Shown piece by piece: positions 25,188 to 63,857 of a DNA stretch of 64,000 bases. A model generated the notes under the pieces. The model was not told the origin of the DNA, made no database searches, and was given only the letters and a program-made list of their open reading frames with translations. Source of the stretch: Siminovitchia fordii DSM 16014 = CIP 108821 (lineage in GTDB: Bacteria; Bacillota; Bacilli; Bacillales; Bacillaceae_C); NCBI RefSeq assembly GCF_000374565.1, contig NZ_KB894685.1, positions 534,221 through 598,220 on the forward strand, read 5' to 3'. Position numbers and translations under genes: made by a program. The first letter of the stretch is position 1; each line of letters begins with the position of its first letter.

Positions 25188-25309
25188 GATGTCATTGATC
25201 TCTCCTGCCTGTTAATATAGTTATTCTGCTGGAGGTATGATAAATCCGAAACAAGAATAGCTGAAATTTCTTTTGGGGGTTCGTGACGATTCATCGGCGA
25301 AATCAGCAG

Positions 25310-25350
25310 AAAAAAAGCGCCTAACCCTTGTATTTAGGGTTAAACGCTTC
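25310..25350 (-). terminator. Terminator of tRNA-Val
   Basis: Minus-strand stem AGCGTTTAACCCT / AGGGTTAGGCGCT followed by seven T, 11 bp beyond the tRNA 3' end. Confidence 0.9.
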
Positions 25351-25360
25351 TTTTCAGTAG

Positions 25361-25433
25361 TGATTCCGACTGGGTTCGAACCAGCGACCTCCACCCTGTC
25401 AAGGTGGCGCTCTCCCAGCTGAGCTACGGAATC
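25361..25433 (-). tRNA. tRNA-Val (anticodon GAC)
   Basis: Complete 73-base cloverleaf on the minus strand. Acceptor stem GATTCCG/CGGAATC, D arm with AGCTGGGA, anticodon stem CCACC/GGTGG around loop TTGACAG (anticodon GAC, reading GUC/GUU), T arm with GGTTCGAAC. The discriminator is A; CCA is not encoded. It has its own promoter and terminator. Confidence 0.95.
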
Positions 25434-25461
25434 AAAAAACAATATCAAGTCGACAATTAAT

Positions 25462-25490
25462 AATATATAACAGCTATCAAATAATGTCAA
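25462..25490 (-). promoter_or_regulatory. Sigma-A promoter of tRNA-Val
   Basis: Minus strand TTGACA (25490-25485), exactly 17 bp, TATATT (25467-25462), about 29 bp upstream of the tRNA 5' end. Confidence 0.88.
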
Positions 25491-25891: not shown

Positions 25892-26788
25892 CTACTTTTC
25901 ATTAGTTAAAGTTAACTTTCCAATCTTGTCACATTCCAATGCAAACCAAATGGTTTCACCATCGACACTAGAAATACCATGCGGTTCAGCATTTGCAGTT
26001 TGAATTGGATATTCCTCAATAACTTTATTGCTTGTCAACCTTCCTATTTTATTAGCCCCCCATTCTGTAAACCATAAATCCGTTCCTGATCCAGCAATAA
26101 TTGCATGAGGCTGAGCATTTGGCGTTGGAATTTTGAATTCAGTAATTTCTCCAGAGGTAGTTATTCGCCCTACTTTATTACCGATAATTTCTACAAACCA
26201 TAGAGCATCATCGTTTCCCTTTGTAATACCTACCGGTCCTGATGCAGGTGTAGGAATTTTAAACTCCGTAATCTGTCCATCTTCTGTAATTCTACCAATA
26301 GCATTATTTTGATTTTCTGTGAACCACAAGGCATTATCTGGCCCTAGAGTGATATAAGAAGGGTAAGAACCTTTATTGGGTAGCTCATATTCACGAATTT
26401 TACCGTCTTCCGTAATATGTCCAATACGGTTTCCATCCATTTCTGTAAACCATATATCTCCATTTGGCCCTTCTGTAATACCAAAGGGTTTTGAATTTGG
26501 GTAAGGCAATGTATGCTCAGTAATAATCCCCTCTTTTGTAATCCTTCCAATTTTGTTTGCTGCATTTTCAGTAAACCAGACATCACCTTCTGAAGATACT
26601 GTTAAACACAACACTTTGGCATCTGGTGTCGGCAATGAGTACTCTGTCATTTTTTCATCTACATCGATGCAAATTATCTTATTTGCTTTATGTAGTGTAA
26701 CCCAGACTTGCCCCTTATCTGAAACAGTTATTCCGTATGGCCCCGTATCTTGGTTGGCAAGATTTAATTCTTGTAATTTATATTCCAC
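25892..26788 (-). CDS. vgb: Virginiamycin B (streptogramin B) lyase
   Basis: 298-residue seven-bladed beta-propeller lyase. Vgb opens the depsipeptide ring of type B streptogramins by Mg-dependent elimination, without hydrolysis. Repeated blades with DxWFTE...NKIGRI/T are obvious. The residues reported for the staphylococcal enzyme are all present at matching places: Y18, H228 (QPHAI), E268 and H270 (AEPHG), and the later glutamate at 285 (one-residue offset). The sequence is very close to what I remember of staphylococcal Vgb, so function as a resistance enzyme is likely. Start is GTG after GGAGGGG. It lies in the tRNA-flanked accessory segment and is preceded by a leader hairpin. Confidence 0.93.
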   Translation of the reverse strand: MEYKLQELNLANQDTGPYGITVSDKGQVWVTLHKANKIICIDVDEKMTEYSLPTPDAKVLCLTVSSEGDVWFTENAANKIGRITKEGIITEHTLPYPNSKPFGITEGPNGDIWFTEMDGNRIGHITEDGKIREYELPNKGSYPSYITLGPDNALWFTENQNNAIGRITEDGQITEFKIPTPASGPVGITKGNDDALWFVEIIGNKVGRITTSGEITEFKIPTPNAQPHAIIAGSGTDLWFTEWGANKIGRLTSNKVIEEYPIQTANAEPHGISSVDGETIWFALECDKIGKLTLTNEK

Positions 26789-27472: not shown

Positions 27473-28438
27473 TCAATCAAACTTATGGGGTTTAAGCAGA
27501 TCTACTGCTTCCATAACAACTGTAGGATGAAGTATCGGTATCATATGTCCTATATTTGGTATTACTTGTAACTGAGAGTTAGTTATTTCATTTATTAATC
27601 TTTTACCTTGTTCAATCGTTCCAAACGGGTCCTTTTCGCCTACTACAACTATAGTAGGAATATCTATATTTGAATAAGTAGAACTTATCTTTTTAGAAGT
27701 TTTCGGGAACTCCAAGACATCTTCACGATTAGCCTTAAATTGGTCAGGTCTAAATCCTAAAGCAATGGTTTCTTCTAGATATTCCTCGGGTGCATTTTCT
27801 GGGAAAAATGTTGAATTTACAGTACTTTTAGCCAAACCTTTACCTAAAGCTGTTCTCAAAAGTGTATTTAATATAAAATCTCCCGCAATTGGTGTTGTGA
27901 CTATTTTAGATAGTGCATCTCCATTTTCTGCTGGGTAGCCTTCTTTAAACATAGCTGCTCCCAACAATACAATCCCCGCTACTTCTTCTGGAAATTGCTG
28001 TGCATAAGAAAGTGTCATCGTTCCACTCCATGAATGACCAACAATGATAATTGGTTCATCTACTCCTATTTCCTTTAAAGCTTCACGGATTAGTGCTGCT
28101 TGAGATATAGGTGTCACCTTTCCTTCTGGTCTATCACTGTAGCCATAACCTGGACGGTCAAATGCCAATCCCTGATATCCCTGAGAAGCTGCCAGATGAA
28201 GCACATCTTTATAATCATTACCAGAAAGCATTGCTCCGTGTAGGAACACAATTGGCTTACCCTCTCCTTCTATGTAGTAATGTAGTCTTACACTATCAAC
28301 AGTAACGAATTTTCCCTTTGGTGGAAAGGATTCTTCTCCTTTCTTCACCTCAACAATGTTATAAAAATATAAACCTAAATACATTAGTAAAAGACTAGCA
28401 AAAAAAATAATAAGCATTTTTTGATATCCTCTTTTCAT
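27473..28438 (-). CDS. Membrane-anchored alpha/beta hydrolase
   Basis: 321-residue alpha/beta-hydrolase with an N-terminal membrane helix (about 9-27), so the catalytic domain is likely outside the membrane. HG oxyanion motif FLHGAM near 65-70, nucleophile S136 in GHSWSG, acid in VVGEKDPFG and histidine in NIGHMIP complete the triad. Substrate unknown. AT-rich codon use matches the rest of the accessory segment. Its upstream gap contains a 26-bp palindrome related to the one in front of the tetR gene, so the TetR protein encoded just upstream probably controls it. Confidence 0.88.
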   Translation of the reverse strand: MKRGYQKMLIIFFASLLLMYLGLYFYNIVEVKKGEESFPPKGKFVTVDSVRLHYYIEGEGKPIVFLHGAMLSGNDYKDVLHLAASQGYQGLAFDRPGYGYSDRPEGKVTPISQAALIREALKEIGVDEPIIIVGHSWSGTMTLSYAQQFPEEVAGIVLLGAAMFKEGYPAENGDALSKIVTTPIAGDFILNTLLRTALGKGLAKSTVNSTFFPENAPEEYLEETIALGFRPDQFKANREDVLEFPKTSKKISSTYSNIDIPTIVVVGEKDPFGTIEQGKRLINEITNSQLQVIPNIGHMIPILHPTVVMEAVDLLKPHKFD

Positions 28439-28481
28439 TTTATCTACTTTAACTCCCTTTTGTTTATACTATCAATACACT

Positions 28482-28507
28482 ATTAACATACTTAATAGTA
28501 TGTTAAT
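28482..28507. promoter_or_regulatory. Palindromic operator upstream of the hydrolase gene
   Basis: Inverted repeat with 11-bp perfect arms and a 4-base centre (left arm ATTAACATACT). It shares the core AACATACT...AGTATGTT with the larger palindrome in front of tetR, so both are probably sites for the same TetR-family protein. It lies 44 bp before the hydrolase start. Confidence 0.78.
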
Positions 28508-28527
28508 TATTATAAAAAACCCGCACT

Positions 28528-29319
28528 TTAGATTACGGATCTTTTTTTTGGAGCTATTCCATCCCAAAGAACATTAGAAATGGTTTCAAAGATGGGGTTT
28601 ATTTTAAAATGTGTTGGATCAATGATGTATTCTATTAAAATTCCTTTCATAAATGCATCAATTGTAACGCTAAGAGAGTTCGGGTGTAACTCACTTGAGA
28701 CAAGACCTTTTTTTTGCATTTCATGTAAATAAGTTCCTACCCCGTCAATTATTTTCCCATGTATCGATTGTAGCTTTTTTTGAACTTCAGGCTCTCTATT
28801 TGCGGCAACAAACTCGAGGAAAAGTCTCGAAGACCCATCATTTATTTCAAAGAAGTTAAACTGAGTTTTGAGCCAATCTGTTAGTGCAGTTTTGGGATTG
28901 CTTGTAGAAAGCATTTTTTCAATTTGCGATGGTAGAATTTGAAGCTGTTGTGTTAAATGATGTTCTAATATGGCTAAAAATAAGTCTTGTTTACTGGAGA
29001 AATGCCAATAGACTGCTCCCTTTGTTAATCCTGCATCAGATGCAACTTTATCTAGGGATGCATTCCCATAGCCTTGTACAGAAAATATTCTTGTACCTGC
29101 TTCTATGATTCTTGTCCTAGTATCTTTAAAACCCTCTTTCATATTTGATTGTTTTTCCTGTAACCAATTCCTCATACCTTCCCTACCACCAAAATGTCTT
29201 CTAACAGCTGTCCAATGAACACCAGCTAATTCGGCAATTTCAGCAAAAGTAATTTGATCGAAAGGCTTTGATTCAAGTAATTTTTCTGCAACTTTATAGA
29301 TTTTCTCTTGAACAGACAA
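28528..29319 (-). CDS. TetR-family regulator with two tandem DNA-binding domains
   Basis: 263 residues, about 65 longer than a normal TetR repressor. The extra length is a second TetR_N-like helix-turn-helix. Domain 1 (about 5-55) holds TFAEIAELAGVHWTAVRRHFGGR; domain 2 (about 67-120) holds ASLDKVASDAGLTKGAVYWHFSSK; a single ligand/dimer domain follows. Start is probably the TTG/ATG after GGAGGTGCAAAT. It overlaps its own promoter with a 42-bp palindrome, which indicates autorepression, and the hydrolase gene downstream has a related site. A dimer would present four recognition helices. Confidence 0.9.
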   Translation of the reverse strand: MSVQEKIYKVAEKLLESKPFDQITFAEIAELAGVHWTAVRRHFGGREGMRNWLQEKQSNMKEGFKDTRTRIIEAGTRIFSVQGYGNASLDKVASDAGLTKGAVYWHFSSKQDLFLAILEHHLTQQLQILPSQIEKMLSTSNPKTALTDWLKTQFNFFEINDGSSRLFLEFVAANREPEVQKKLQSIHGKIIDGVGTYLHEMQKKGLVSSELHPNSLSVTIDAFMKGILIEYIIDPTHFKINPIFETISNVLWDGIAPKKRSVI

Positions 29320-29352
29320 ATTTGCACCTCCATAATCTCCGACATTTATTTC

Positions 29353-29394
29353 AGTATTTTGTAAACATACTTATAAGTATGTTTACAAAATACT
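29353..29394. promoter_or_regulatory. 42-bp perfect palindrome, tetR operator
   Basis: Uninterrupted perfect inverted repeat, 21 bp each side, centred between 29373 and 29374 (centre AACATACTTATAAGTATGTT). It covers the -10 box of the tetR promoter and ends 34 bp above the tetR start. The length is about twice that of a usual TetR site, in keeping with the doubled DNA-binding domain. Confidence 0.88.
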
Positions 29395-29415
29395 TTTTAC
29401 AATGTAAAATGTCAA
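29387..29415 (-). promoter_or_regulatory. Sigma-A promoter of tetR
   Basis: Minus strand TTGACA (29415-29410), 17 bp, TATTTT (29392-29387). The -10 box lies inside the palindromic operator. Confidence 0.82.
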
Positions 29416-30044: not shown

Positions 30045-32003
30045 TCAACTTTCCGCCAATTTATACTTCCCTTTATTTTTCGTGAAAATTTGTACGGCAA
30101 GCATTGCGATAAATAATACTAAACCGATGATATCTGACATTCCTTCAGGGTACATGAGCATGAGTCCTGAAGCAATGGCAATTATACGCTCGTACCAGTA
30201 CAGTTTCCTGTACCAAAACCCGATAATTCCGGCGCCTGTTGCAAGCATTCCAGTAAATGCCGTGAATAACATCCAGATGAGATAAGGAATCGTTGTATCA
30301 ATCATTAACAATTCTGGCGATAGTACAAACATATAAGGAATGATGAACGCTGCAATTGCCAATTTCGATGCGTTGACTCCGGTTCGTATCGGTTCCCCTC
30401 CAGAAACTCCCGATGCCGCAAATGCCGCCAAAGCGACCGGCGGTGTAATATCGGCTACAATCCCAAAATAGAAGACGAACAAATGGGCAGAGAGTGCAGG
30501 TACACCTAACAATATGATGGCAGGTGCCGCAATTGTTGAGGTGATGACGTAGTTCGCTGTTGTTGGTGAACCCATGCCAAGTACAATGGCTGTCAGCATT
30601 GTAAAGAACAGAGTCAATAACAGCTGGCCGTTGGCCAGACCGACCAATCCATTGGCAAGCTTCAGCCCCAGACCCGTTTTCGTAACTACACCAACGATGA
30701 TTCCCGCAGATGCGGTAGCCGCCGCTACGGAAAGTGCCGTTCTCGCACCGTCCACTAGGGCCTCCACCATTTGCTTAAATCCGATACGAGTACTTTTCCG
30801 GATGGCACTGACAACGATCGTACCAATGATGGACCAAAGAGCCGCACGCATAACACTCACTCCGGTCATAAGGAGAACAATGATCAGGAGGATCGGGAGC
30901 AATAGATAAATCTTCCCAAATACCTCTTTCCTGTCCGGCATTTCCTCTTTTGATAAACCTTTAAGGCCCACTCGTTTTGCTTCAAGGTGAGTCATGATCC
31001 ATATTCCGGAGAAATACAGGATTGCCGGGATAACAGCCGCCTTTGCTATTTCCCAGTATGTGATTCCAATGAATTCAACCATCAAGAATGCTGCTGCCCC
31101 CATGACAGGCGGCATGATCTGTCCACCTGTTGATGCAGCGGCTTCAACGGCACCTGCAAATTCTTTGCGGTAACCAAGTTTTTTCATCATCGGTATCGTA
31201 AATGAACCTGATGTGACAACGTTGGCAACTGAGCTTCCACTGATAGTTCCTTGCAAAGCACTGGAAAAAATCGCAACCTTTGCCGGTCCCCCCACCCTTC
31301 TGCCTGCAATCGAAAGGGCCAAATCATTGAAATATTGGCCGACGCCGGTTTTCACAAGGAACGCACCAAACAACAGGAATAAAAATATGAACGTTGCAGA
31401 AACATACAACGGCGTTCCCAAAATTCCTTGTGATGTATAAAACATAGTATTAATGAGACTTTCAAAATTCAAACCTCTATGTGCCAGGAAACCCGGCATC
31501 GACGGACCAAAATATGCATACAACATAAATAAAAGAGCAATGATCGTGATCGGAAGTCCTACAGCGCGCCGCGTTGCTTCTAGTGTCAATAAAACAGCGA
31601 GCGTTCCGACTGTCAAATCAAGCGTGGTCAATGTTCCCACCCGATTGACTATGGTTTCAATCATTAGGGGCCAATAAGCACCCACCCCAACTGATAGGGT
31701 GGCAAAAATGATATCATACCACGCTACAATGTCCTTCCGCCTCGTCTTTCTTTTCGCCGGAAAAAGAAGGAATATAAGTGAAAGAGCAAATCCCAGGTGG
31801 ATGGACAGCAGAATTTGACGCGGTATCGATTGTGTAATAGACGCATACAATTGAAAAATGGAAAACGCCAACAATCCGAAAAATATTATCCAACCAAGCG
31901 TACCTCTTACTCTCCGCGTAGCTGATTCCGGATCATATTTTTCCAATATTTTACGTTGTTCCTCTTCCGATAAAGCTTCATGGGTCGGTTTATCTGCCAA
32001 CAA
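30045..32003 (-). CDS. TRAP transporter fused permease (4TM/12TM)
   Basis: 652-residue membrane protein in which the small DctQ-like and large DctM-like TRAP subunits are fused. It has four N-terminal helices (about 35-150) and then the large subunit with GQIMPPVMGAAAFLMVEFIG, GLVTKTGLGLK-like and GMGSPTTANYVITSTIAAPA motifs. It uses ion gradients to import organic anions delivered by the TAXI binding protein. It starts at TTG (32003) after AAAGGAG, overlapping the end of the DUF1850 gene by 14 bp, so the three genes are translated together. Its stop is 12 bases from the tRNA fragment. Confidence 0.92.
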   Translation of the reverse strand: MLADKPTHEALSEEEQRKILEKYDPESATRRVRGTLGWIIFFGLLAFSIFQLYASITQSIPRQILLSIHLGFALSLIFLLFPAKRKTRRKDIVAWYDIIFATLSVGVGAYWPLMIETIVNRVGTLTTLDLTVGTLAVLLTLEATRRAVGLPITIIALLFMLYAYFGPSMPGFLAHRGLNFESLINTMFYTSQGILGTPLYVSATFIFLFLLFGAFLVKTGVGQYFNDLALSIAGRRVGGPAKVAIFSSALQGTISGSSVANVVTSGSFTIPMMKKLGYRKEFAGAVEAAASTGGQIMPPVMGAAAFLMVEFIGITYWEIAKAAVIPAILYFSGIWIMTHLEAKRVGLKGLSKEEMPDRKEVFGKIYLLLPILLIIVLLMTGVSVMRAALWSIIGTIVVSAIRKSTRIGFKQMVEALVDGARTALSVAAATASAGIIVGVVTKTGLGLKLANGLVGLANGQLLLTLFFTMLTAIVLGMGSPTTANYVITSTIAAPAIILLGVPALSAHLFVFYFGIVADITPPVALAAFAASGVSGGEPIRTGVNASKLAIAAFIIPYMFVLSPELLMIDTTIPYLIWMLFTAFTGMLATGAGIIGFWYRKLYWYERIIAIASGLMLMYPEGMSDIIGLVLFIAMLAVQIFTKNKGKYKLAES

Positions 32004-32502
32004 TATTCACTCCTTTCCATTGCTGCCATAAAGAAAGCTTCCTTTTCTCAATCCTTACCACAGATCCCGGCTCGGTAATCTCTGTAAATGGCGTTACCTT
32101 CTCCCCAACCACAAGACGATGGTCGGCGCTTACCTGGCCAGTGCTAAGATCAATCCAAGGAAAATCACGCTTCATGTTTCGGATATAATATTTACCATCT
32201 TTCATCTGGAAGGTTTCCCCTTCCTCTGAATTGGATGGCATGCCTACAGCTGTATCTTCATATTCCAATTCCACTTGGCGGACGACACCATTTTCCAGTA
32301 CCTGATATTCCTCTTTAACATCTGAATGGTGAATGGAATGGTTATATACTATTTGAAATCGGCTGTTCGCTGCCCTAAGCGGGAAGTAGGCGAGCAGCTG
32401 ATTTTCTTTTTGAGACTTGATTGTAATCGTATCTGTTACTGGAACCACTAAAAATATGAAAGCTATAAATGGTATGATGAACAGCATCAAACGTTTGGGC
32501 AT
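31990..32502 (-). CDS. DUF1850 protein of the TRAP-TAXI cluster
   Basis: 170-residue protein with an N-terminal hydrophobic anchor (about 5-22), then an extracytoplasmic beta-rich domain with FQIVYNHSIHHSDVKEEYQV, EDTAVGMPSNSEEGE and GSVVRIEKRKLSLWQQW. DUF1850 genes regularly sit beside TAXI/TRAP-fused permeases; the function is unknown. The frame is open to 32571, but ATG at 32502 has GGGGGAG right upstream and places the anchor at the N-terminus. It lies between receptor and permease genes. Confidence 0.85.
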   Translation of the reverse strand: MPKRLMLFIIPFIAFIFLVVPVTDTITIKSQKENQLLAYFPLRAANSRFQIVYNHSIHHSDVKEEYQVLENGVVRQVELEYEDTAVGMPSNSEEGETFQMKDGKYYIRNMKRDFPWIDLSTGQVSADHRLVVGEKVTPFTEITEPGSVVRIEKRKLSLWQQWKGVNIVGR

Positions 32503-32590
32503 ATTTCTCTCCCCCAAAAAAATCCTCTTCAAAGAAAAGAATAGACCGAAAGGATGGTCCGGTCTATTCACGCCATTGGATATACATCAC

Positions 32591-33592
32591 TTATTTTTCC
32601 GCTGAAATGCCCTTTTCATCAAAGTACTTTTTGGCACCTGGGTGAATATCAATGGCCATTCCATTCAATGCATTTTCAACACTGATTTGCTTGCCTTTTG
32701 CATGACCGACTTTATCAGTATTCTCATATATCGATTTCGCCATTTCGTAGACAAGGTCATCTGATAAATCGGATCTGACGACAAGCATAGCTTGGACCGC
32801 TACTGTATTTACATCCCTCTTGGCATCATACGTTCCTTTTTTGATTGTTTCCTTTGCATAATAAGGATATTTTTCTATAAGGGCATCAATTTTATCATCT
32901 TCAAGGGGAACAATAACGACTTTTTCAGTTGCCGCTAATCCCTCAACAGCTCCTGTCGGTGTTCCTGCAGTTATGAAAGCGGCATCAATTGTACCATCTT
33001 GAATTCCTGTAGTGGAATCATCAAAAGACAGATTTCTGGCTTTTACATCGTCAAGATTCATACCGTACGCTTCAAGAATCTGTTCCGCGTTGGCAAGCGT
33101 CCCTGATCCGGATTCTCCGACAGAGACTGTTTTGCCTTTCAAGTCTTCTACCGATTTAATTCCGGATTTCTTCGTAGTAACTATTTGGAGCGTTTCCGGA
33201 TAAAGTGTTCCCAGACCTTTCAGGTTGTCCACTTTTTCTTTGAACATATTGGTTCCTTCAGTGGCATATGTAGCGATATCCGTTTGTGTGAAAGCCACTT
33301 CGGCTTCTTCTTTTTTAATTAGGGCCATATTTTCCGCAGATGCTCCCGAAGTGACTGCATTGGACTCTATTCCTGTTGCATCCTTGATCAAATTGGCAAA
33401 ACTTCCTCCAAGCGGATAATATGTACCCCCAGTACCGCCTGTCGCAATACTGATGAATTTGACACCATAATCTTTCCCGCCTTTTCCTGTCTTCTCCTTT
33501 CCTTTATCATCTCCACCACCGCCGCAGGCTGCCAGCACTAATGAAATCACTAACATAAAAGTGATGCTAAAAAAAGATTTTTTTCGACTCAT
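32591..33592 (-). CDS. TAXI-family TRAP solute-binding lipoprotein
   Basis: 333-residue extracytoplasmic receptor. Lipoprotein signal peptide with cleavage before C23 (LVLAAC-GGG), then KFISIATGGTGGTYYPLGGSFANLI, the TAXI signature, and KGKTVSVGESGSGT ligand-site segment. TAXI proteins bind glutamate/glutamine or other dicarboxylates; the ligand here is not predictable. It is the first gene of the TAXI-DUF1850-permease operon, with the ATG after GAGGAGGCC. Confidence 0.93.
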   Translation of the reverse strand: MSRKKSFFSITFMLVISLVLAACGGGGDDKGKEKTGKGGKDYGVKFISIATGGTGGTYYPLGGSFANLIKDATGIESNAVTSGASAENMALIKKEEAEVAFTQTDIATYATEGTNMFKEKVDNLKGLGTLYPETLQIVTTKKSGIKSVEDLKGKTVSVGESGSGTLANAEQILEAYGMNLDDVKARNLSFDDSTTGIQDGTIDAAFITAGTPTGAVEGLAATEKVVIVPLEDDKIDALIEKYPYYAKETIKKGTYDAKRDVNTVAVQAMLVVRSDLSDDLVYEMAKSIYENTDKVGHAKGKQISVENALNGMAIDIHPGAKKYFDEKGISAEK

Positions 33593-42424: not shown

Positions 42425-42523
42425 GTCAACCTCCGCTTTTCAGAATGGTAACTATATTTTTCACCATTTCATGTAAATTATGAACGGAAATGTCTGCTCA
42501 TGTTACTAACAGATATTTTAAAA

Positions 42524-42564
42524 AATAAACAGGGAAATTCCCGTTAAGAATTTCCCTGTTTATT
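42524..42564. terminator. Bidirectional terminator with 17-bp perfect stem
   Basis: Two 17-base arms (left arm AATAAACAGGGAAATTC) around a 7-base loop, with A/T-rich flanks. It ends the 44-codon gene on the minus strand and insulates the spoVA unit. Confidence 0.85.
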
Positions 42565-42595
42565 TATGCATGCCAATCAGCGAAAAAGCTCTTCG

Positions 42596-63722: not shown

Positions 63723-63818
63723 GAAATGCGATATGGGTAAAAGGCGGTTCCATAGCCACCATCTCAATTTAGGTTGACCCTAAAGCTCGCTATTTTTTAC
63801 TTTTAAAAATAAAATGAA

Positions 63819-63857
63819 AAAATTCCCCTTTGATTGACAAGGGGAATTTTTTCATTT
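63819..63857. terminator. Convergent terminator of trpS and yjbA
   Basis: AAAAAATTCCCCTT/AAGGGGAATTTTTT stem, able to work in both directions. Confidence 0.9.

Follow-up and report, generated by a model that had tools for sequence, protein, structure and literature searches.

The window (the whole 64-kb stretch of DNA analysed here) holds a gene for a TetR/AcrR-type regulator with two DNA-binding domains, referred to below as head 1 and head 2, together with a palindrome at its promoter (O1) and a related site (O2) in the gap before a hydrolase gene. The features of the locus are as follows.

28528-29319, minus strand: TetR/AcrR-type regulator with two N-terminal DNA-binding domains, 263 aa, TTG start
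29173-29301, minus strand: DNA-binding domain 1 (head 1), residues 7-49, Pfam TetR_N
29191-29214, minus strand: head-1 recognition helix, residues 36-43 (motif HWTAVRRHF, residues 35-43)
28969-29109, minus strand: DNA-binding domain 2 (head 2), residues 71-117, Pfam TetR_N
29002-29022, minus strand: head-2 recognition helix, residues 100-106 (motif TKGAVYWHF, residues 99-107)
28531-28962, minus strand: C-terminal ligand/dimerisation domain, residues 120-263, from profile and fold matches
29353-29394: O1, 42-bp perfect palindrome, proposed autoregulatory operator, two 21-nt arms with zero spacer
29354-29357 (GTAT), 29367-29370 (ATAC), 29377-29380 (GTAT), 29390-29393 (ATAC): half-site words of O1
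29387-29415, minus strand: proposed regulator promoter, -35 TTGACA 29415-29410, 17 bp, -10 TATTTT 29392-29387
28482-28507: O2, proposed second operator, in the gap between regulator and hydrolase, core CATACTTAATAGTATG at 28487-28502
27473-28438, minus strand: proposed target gene, alpha/beta hydrolase, 321 aa, Pfam Abhydrolase_1 93.7 bits

Elsewhere in the window, the minus strand carries at 25892-26788 a full-length member of the Pfam virginiamycin B lyase family (430.8 bits), named after streptogramin inactivation and assigned here by family match alone, and at 30045-33592 a TRAP-type transporter cluster with a DctM-type permease, an NMT1-like solute receptor and a 193-aa ORF between them. 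The sole tRNA found in the window is a tRNA-Val (gac) at 25360-25433, minus strand, and the 89-aa ORF that overlaps it (25221-25490) is probably not a gene. The long inverted repeats at 63812-63857 (19-nt arms) and 42523-42565 (18-nt arms) are possibly terminators.

The regulator and its two DNA-binding heads

Few switches are used as widely in biology and in biosensors as TetR proteins, and in the cases known to us, as far as the portions of the sources consulted describe them, each chain has one DNA head per ligand domain. The preliminary description had proposed two consecutive TetR_N domains ahead of one C-terminal domain in the 263-residue protein, with a helix-turn-helix in each, and both points hold, the second by structure prediction. 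When the heads are scanned separately against Pfam TetR_N, residues 1-62 score 30.1 bits and residues 63-126 61.2 bits, each passing the cut-off of 24 bits on its own. A full model of the regulator was obtained with AlphaFold2 from an alignment of 52 sequences, comprising 51 relatives and the window's own (pLDDT 87.9, pTM 0.68). In this model, head 1 has helices at residues 3-15, 25-32 and 36-43 and head 2 at residues 67-86, 89-96 and 100-106, and a single all-helical domain lies C-terminal to both three-helix heads. Head 1 modelled on its own (residues 1-62) reaches a pLDDT of 90.6, and a Foldseek search with it returned 49 TetR-family chains, identified by title or by recognition, among the best 50 rows, the remaining one being 7eqf, whose title is merely "Transcription Factor". 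The best E value of this search was 0.046, for so short a model.

The C-terminal domain gives weak Pfam matches to TetR_C_6 and TetR_C_2, under their cut-offs. The fold search aligns regulator residues 61-258 with YfiR (Z 17.1, rmsd 3.1, 194 residues aligned), and QacR (Z 16.5, rmsd 3.2, 185 aligned) and FadR match as well; the modelled domain is thus predicted to have the all-helical ligand/dimer fold of the TetR type. By profile search, the solved sequences nearest to head 2 and the C-terminal domain belong to the AcrR/TtgR/MtrR/NalD/SmeT group (AcrR 2qop, E 2.6e-30; Salmonella AcrR 3lhq, E 3.6e-31), whose members have one head, whereas the window regulator has two. The protein falls short of the NCBIfam equivalog cut-offs for the ScbR type (81.8 of 150 bits), AcrR (72.8 of 271) and MtrR (68.3 of 280). 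No solved chain spanning both heads was found among the best 60 of 187 sequence matches, which start at profile position 57 or later, or among the 50 fold rows listed, which cover chiefly residues 61-259 with a few ranges starting at 15-49. Likewise, a TetR protein that combines two N-terminal heads in tandem with a single C-terminal domain appeared in none of the open-licence PubMed Central matches listed. The host genome (4.5 Mb, 45 contigs) has 28 TetR_N matches in 27 frames, and the regulator frame is the only one with two.

A scan of the genome collection kept 80 of 239 loci. The double-headed arrangement recurs there: 54 of the 56 relatives L013-L068 match across both heads (starting no later than residue 21 and ending no earlier than residue 245), and they range over Bacillota, cyanobacteria, proteobacteria and others. 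The type is uncommon, being found in 2 of 34 genomes of the window's bacterial family and 16 of 398 of its class; around L043 it occurs in 3 of 291 genomes of the class, around L058 in 15 of 300 of the order and around L054 in 1 of 289 of the class. Each count takes in the window's own or the centre genome. The head-2 helix KGAVYWHF (K100-F107) is invariant in the 52 aligned sequences, and V103 is replaced by I in the later loci L105, L128 and L129. In head 1, W36, V39 and R41 are conserved at 90% or more and G44 is invariant in the same alignment. The head-1 helix reads HW followed by T, S or M in Bacillota (HW-type), with the exceptions of L063 and the later L116, and SW, PW, SQ or SR outside this type.

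The operators in the window and in the relatives

The preliminary description of an uninterrupted 42-bp palindrome over the -10 box is borne out: positions 29353-29394 are perfectly palindromic and cover the TATTTT proposed by a consensus scan, which gave 10 promoter-like sites in the region against 4.5 in shuffles. The proposed -10 box sits in the upstream outer arm of O1. The four half-site words are spaced by 13, 10 and 13 bp, so that each word recurs after 23 bp. The second-longest spacerless palindrome in the window has 16 bp, and the base composition predicts about 3e-8 to 6e-7 perfect 42-mers; on this expectation and the conservation in relatives we reject a chance origin. An RNA hairpin in the transcript was also considered and set aside. 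The single strand would fold, but the predicted start lies inside the palindrome, the -10 box being its upstream arm, and the transcript would therefore lack that arm.

A related 26-bp palindrome had been described at the hydrolase gene. O2, about 44 bp upstream of the hydrolase start, does have the AACATACT-N4-AGTATGTT pattern in common with O1, but its 11-nt arms flank a non-complementary 4-nt centre and do not form a perfect 26-mer. In the 4.5-Mb genome this pattern occurs with zero mismatches solely in O1 and O2 and with one mismatch nowhere; the next best sites have two mismatches, and at up to three mismatches there are 35 sites versus 43 for a reversed control pattern. A possible weak second core lies beside O2 at 28463-28480 (ATAC at 28466 and 28475), at a step of 22 bp, versus 23 bp for the second core of the relatives. 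Between regulator and O2-type site, the sequences of the relatives point to a likely terminator; the scan found none there in the window.

The N-terminal segment of the hydrolase is hydrophobic and resembles a membrane anchor. Of 36 HW-type Bacillota loci (the window, L013-L042, L044-L047 and L050), 31 have a homologue of the hydrolase 3' of the regulator, the match in L020 covering 78 residues only. Among other neighbours, L044 has an MMPL transporter and L045 a hydrolase, the proteobacterial L058 and L067 adjoin HlyD-type efflux genes (L058 also an AcrB-type efflux gene), two hydrolases adjoin the cyanobacterial L059, and L056 has a sortilin/BNR-type protein. In the scan of 10 neighbour proteins, those of L048 and L054 matched no family.

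In the relatives we searched for a 16-base, even core pattern (halves CATACYNW and WNRGTATG, that is, CATAC-N6-GTATG) at up to two mismatches, the upstream search covering -150 to +30 of the start. The core was found upstream of the regulator in 47 of 55 loci, compared with 0.4 expected from dinucleotide shuffles, and in the gap 3' of the regulator in 28 of 35, compared with 0.35. Because the pattern was picked after viewing the first loci, the later loci are the cleaner test, and they give 19 of 21 upstream (16 of 18 without L101, L110 and L118, whose operators repeat first-set ones) and 7 of 11 in the gap. The upstream count keeps near-identical pairs and leaves out L052 (frame-shifted) and L066, both under 200 aa, and L012, a duplicate of L035. 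For the later-locus scan, one of each near-identical pair (L023, L031, L061), the identical L102, L111, L117, L119, L120 and L121, and L107, the window itself, were removed, and L125 and L130 were left out, the domain-2 motif not being found in their pieces. A palindromic site near the own gene is thus conserved in the regulator family.

A second core recurs at a fixed distance. In the gap operators 3' of the regulator (n = 33), a weaker second core often begins exactly 23 bp downstream, GTAT being found at +26 in 10 of 33 (background 0.27) and ATA[CT] at +16 in 11 of 33 (background 0.52), and two cores 23 bp apart are present in L128 and L130. Tandem cores with 22-23 bp spacing are also seen by inspection in the non-HW loci L048, L054, L055, L057 and L067. 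Such tandem cores would suit an arrangement similar to that of Mce3R, in which the two heads of one chain read a whole core as a pseudo-dimer and the partner chain reads the core 23 bp away; Mce3R itself seats two different heads of one chain adjacently on one site (PMC11667970, in the portion consulted). However, the two halves of the core are the same word though the recognition helices of the two heads differ, and the Bacillota autoregulatory operators have their dyad centre at the middle of a single core. We therefore consider the pseudo-dimer arrangement rather improbable.

Outer half-sites in the Bacillota operators

The computed conservation of the Bacillota operators extends beyond the core. 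Over 30 distinct operators, both sides show conservation in the columns 13-20 bases from the centre, with the consensus TATNATA upstream and T[G/A]T[G/T]A[T/C]A downstream (other strand), and the information is at most 0.26 bits from 22 bases outward. Since the upstream outer arm coincides with the -10 box, nothing follows from its conservation, and the downstream arm has to carry the argument. A motif built from 29 left arms and placed at the exact mirror offset scores 0.71 on the right arms, against a background of -9.94 (sd 0.69) and a maximum of -6.0 in 2000 shuffles. Applied to 10 unseen loci that share less than 70% identity with those used before, the mirror test gives z 4.8, again with the exact offset best. 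L101 and L110, with the same operators as earlier loci, were left out of the 10-locus test and of the 41-arm tests below.

These arms could instead be promoter elements, the core being the sole operator, the length of the palindrome accidental and head 1 a structural extra. TATNATA can indeed be read as a -10 box from either strand, and in 31 of 43 HW-type operators a -35 box with five or more of six matches lies 16-18 bp from the upstream outer arm. In the gap operators, the downstream arm could, as read from the sequences, be a -10 box behind a TTAACA that overlaps the core, and the window's own downstream arm is one of 11, out of 41, in which both -10 bases are retained. The other 30 of the 41 right arms lack an essential -10 base, yet their mirror match to the upstream arm remains, at the exact offset (z 10). 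A divergent promoter behind the downstream arm was rejected as well, since a divergent -35 was found in just 1 of 43 operators, and a perfect 42-mer is far beyond chance. The arms as promoter elements alone are thus, in our estimate, a remote prospect.

The outer site is not uniform across the family. In the non-HW clade the core is kept, and a general outer site was not found in 15 and then 20 operators; at the O2-type sites, a matching outer arm on the upstream side was not found. The outer arms of O1 itself are a poor fit to the outer consensus of the family, differing from it at -15 and -13, and carry an inner-like G.

Proposed assignment of the heads and comparison with known systems

The inner C/G is present in 41 of 41 operators on both sides, an invariance that is partly built in because the operators were chosen by a pattern holding those bases (with two mismatches allowed), and the same lattice position outside has G in 5 of 41 and 11 of 41. 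Outer sites without the inner G suggest a different reader. The word of the inner sites is one known from AcrR, among the nearest solved relatives of head 2 with the C-terminal domain, which favours head 2 as the reader of the core: the AcrR site, TACATACATTTGTGAATGTATGTA, carries the same ACATAC, with ACATAC/GTATGT in common with the window core, the halves being 6 bp apart in the window family versus 10 bp in the AcrR site (PMC10597343, in the portion consulted).

The outer site varies between clades along with head 1. In a residue-base covariation analysis, the highest-scoring of 4767 pairs joins head-1 residue 35 to operator base -18 (z 15-16); in the downstream arm, H35 goes with a purine in 30 of 31 cases and S or P in 2 of 12. 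On the downstream arm alone, residue 35 gives z 11.4 versus z 10.5 for residue 202 of the C-terminal domain, and inside the HW clade head 1 shows no excess covariation with the outer arms. The signal of residue 35 and base -18 lies between clades, and shared ancestry would give it too. Two relatives bear on the heads from another side. In L051 and L066 no head 1 was found in any frame within 500 bases upstream of the match; these are possibly rearranged loci. L051 has no core upstream and a 1-mismatch core 3' of the gene, which counts against the model below, though the two loci do not decide the roles of the heads.

From these data we infer which head reads which site and with what stoichiometry. 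The best-supported model, to which we give about an even chance, has head 2 reading the core and head 1 the flanks, with one dimer per four half-sites. Head 2, next to the dimer domain, would read the inner half-sites ACATACT/AGTATGT, 10 bp apart, like an ordinary TetR dimer, and head 1, tethered ahead of it, would read on either side a half-site lying 13 bp farther outward. One dimer could then occupy four half-sites across about 42 bp. The fuller version of this model, a single homodimer with four heads of two specificities on a 13-10-13 bp, 23-bp-repeat operator, with head 2 fixed on ACATAC and the flanking site of head 1 evolving by clade, we hold more tentatively, at somewhat under an even chance.

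The main rival to the one-dimer model is binding of two dimers per operator, in the manner of QacR and DarR. Head 2 of four chains would then fill the four half-sites, and head 1 would give only non-specific or protein-protein contacts. DarR, a TetR protein, binds overlapping palindromes of one operator as a dimer of dimers, with four recognition helices, and QacR is cited as filling four half-sites with two dimers (PMC10636190, in the portion consulted); in both, two dimers supply the four helices, each chain having one head. The tandem cores 23 bp apart in the relatives (GTAT at +26, ATA[CT] at +16) would also suit two dimers.

A further point in their favour comes from the host genome itself. 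The preliminary description had matched the doubled head to a double-length operator; the four half-site words stand, with inner and outer pairs conserved in Bacillota, but the match in length is not diagnostic. In the same genome, the promoter region of the single-head TetR L146 (G000:C16:27543-29065) contains a palindrome of 40 bp with 19 of 20 pairs matching, and operator length alone therefore proves nothing. This control covers 19 usable promoters, from 20 of the 26 other TetR_N frames fetched, with L148 masked and uncounted.

On the other side, most outer half-sites are without the G that every inner one has, yet the head-2 helix hardly varies, and the outer site shifts between clades together with head 1. 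Moreover, the recognition helix of head 1 is strongly conserved, and a mere spacer needs no such conservation. On balance, we regard two-dimer binding as less likely, while taking it as the most serious of the alternatives, and retain the model of one dimer on four half-sites.

The N-terminal extension of SimR is reportedly a flexible arm and not a second helix-turn-helix domain. It reportedly lies ahead of the TetR head and touches DNA (title of a paper cited in PMC8053128). Mce3R of M. tuberculosis, like the window regulator, has two TetR DNA-binding domains per chain. It is, however, a 406-aa protein of two fused TetR sequences with a non-palindromic operator (PMC11667970, in the portion consulted), whereas the window regulator has 263 aa, tandem heads, one C-terminal domain and a palindromic operator; neither two complete TetR units in the regulator nor a non-palindromic operator at O1 was found.

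The locus may thus encode a self-repressing switch of a small AcrR-like TetR subfamily in which the N-terminal DNA-binding domain is doubled. We infer repression and the response to a ligand from this arrangement: on O1, the regulator would lie over the start region and the -10 box of its own gene; on O2, it would control the downstream hydrolase too; and a ligand in the C-terminal domain, as assumed from the family, would release the DNA. Judged from its two heads and its operators, the family probably reads about twice the DNA length of an ordinary TetR protein. If the one-dimer model is true, a repressor would thereby gain recognition length and specificity without a second dimer.
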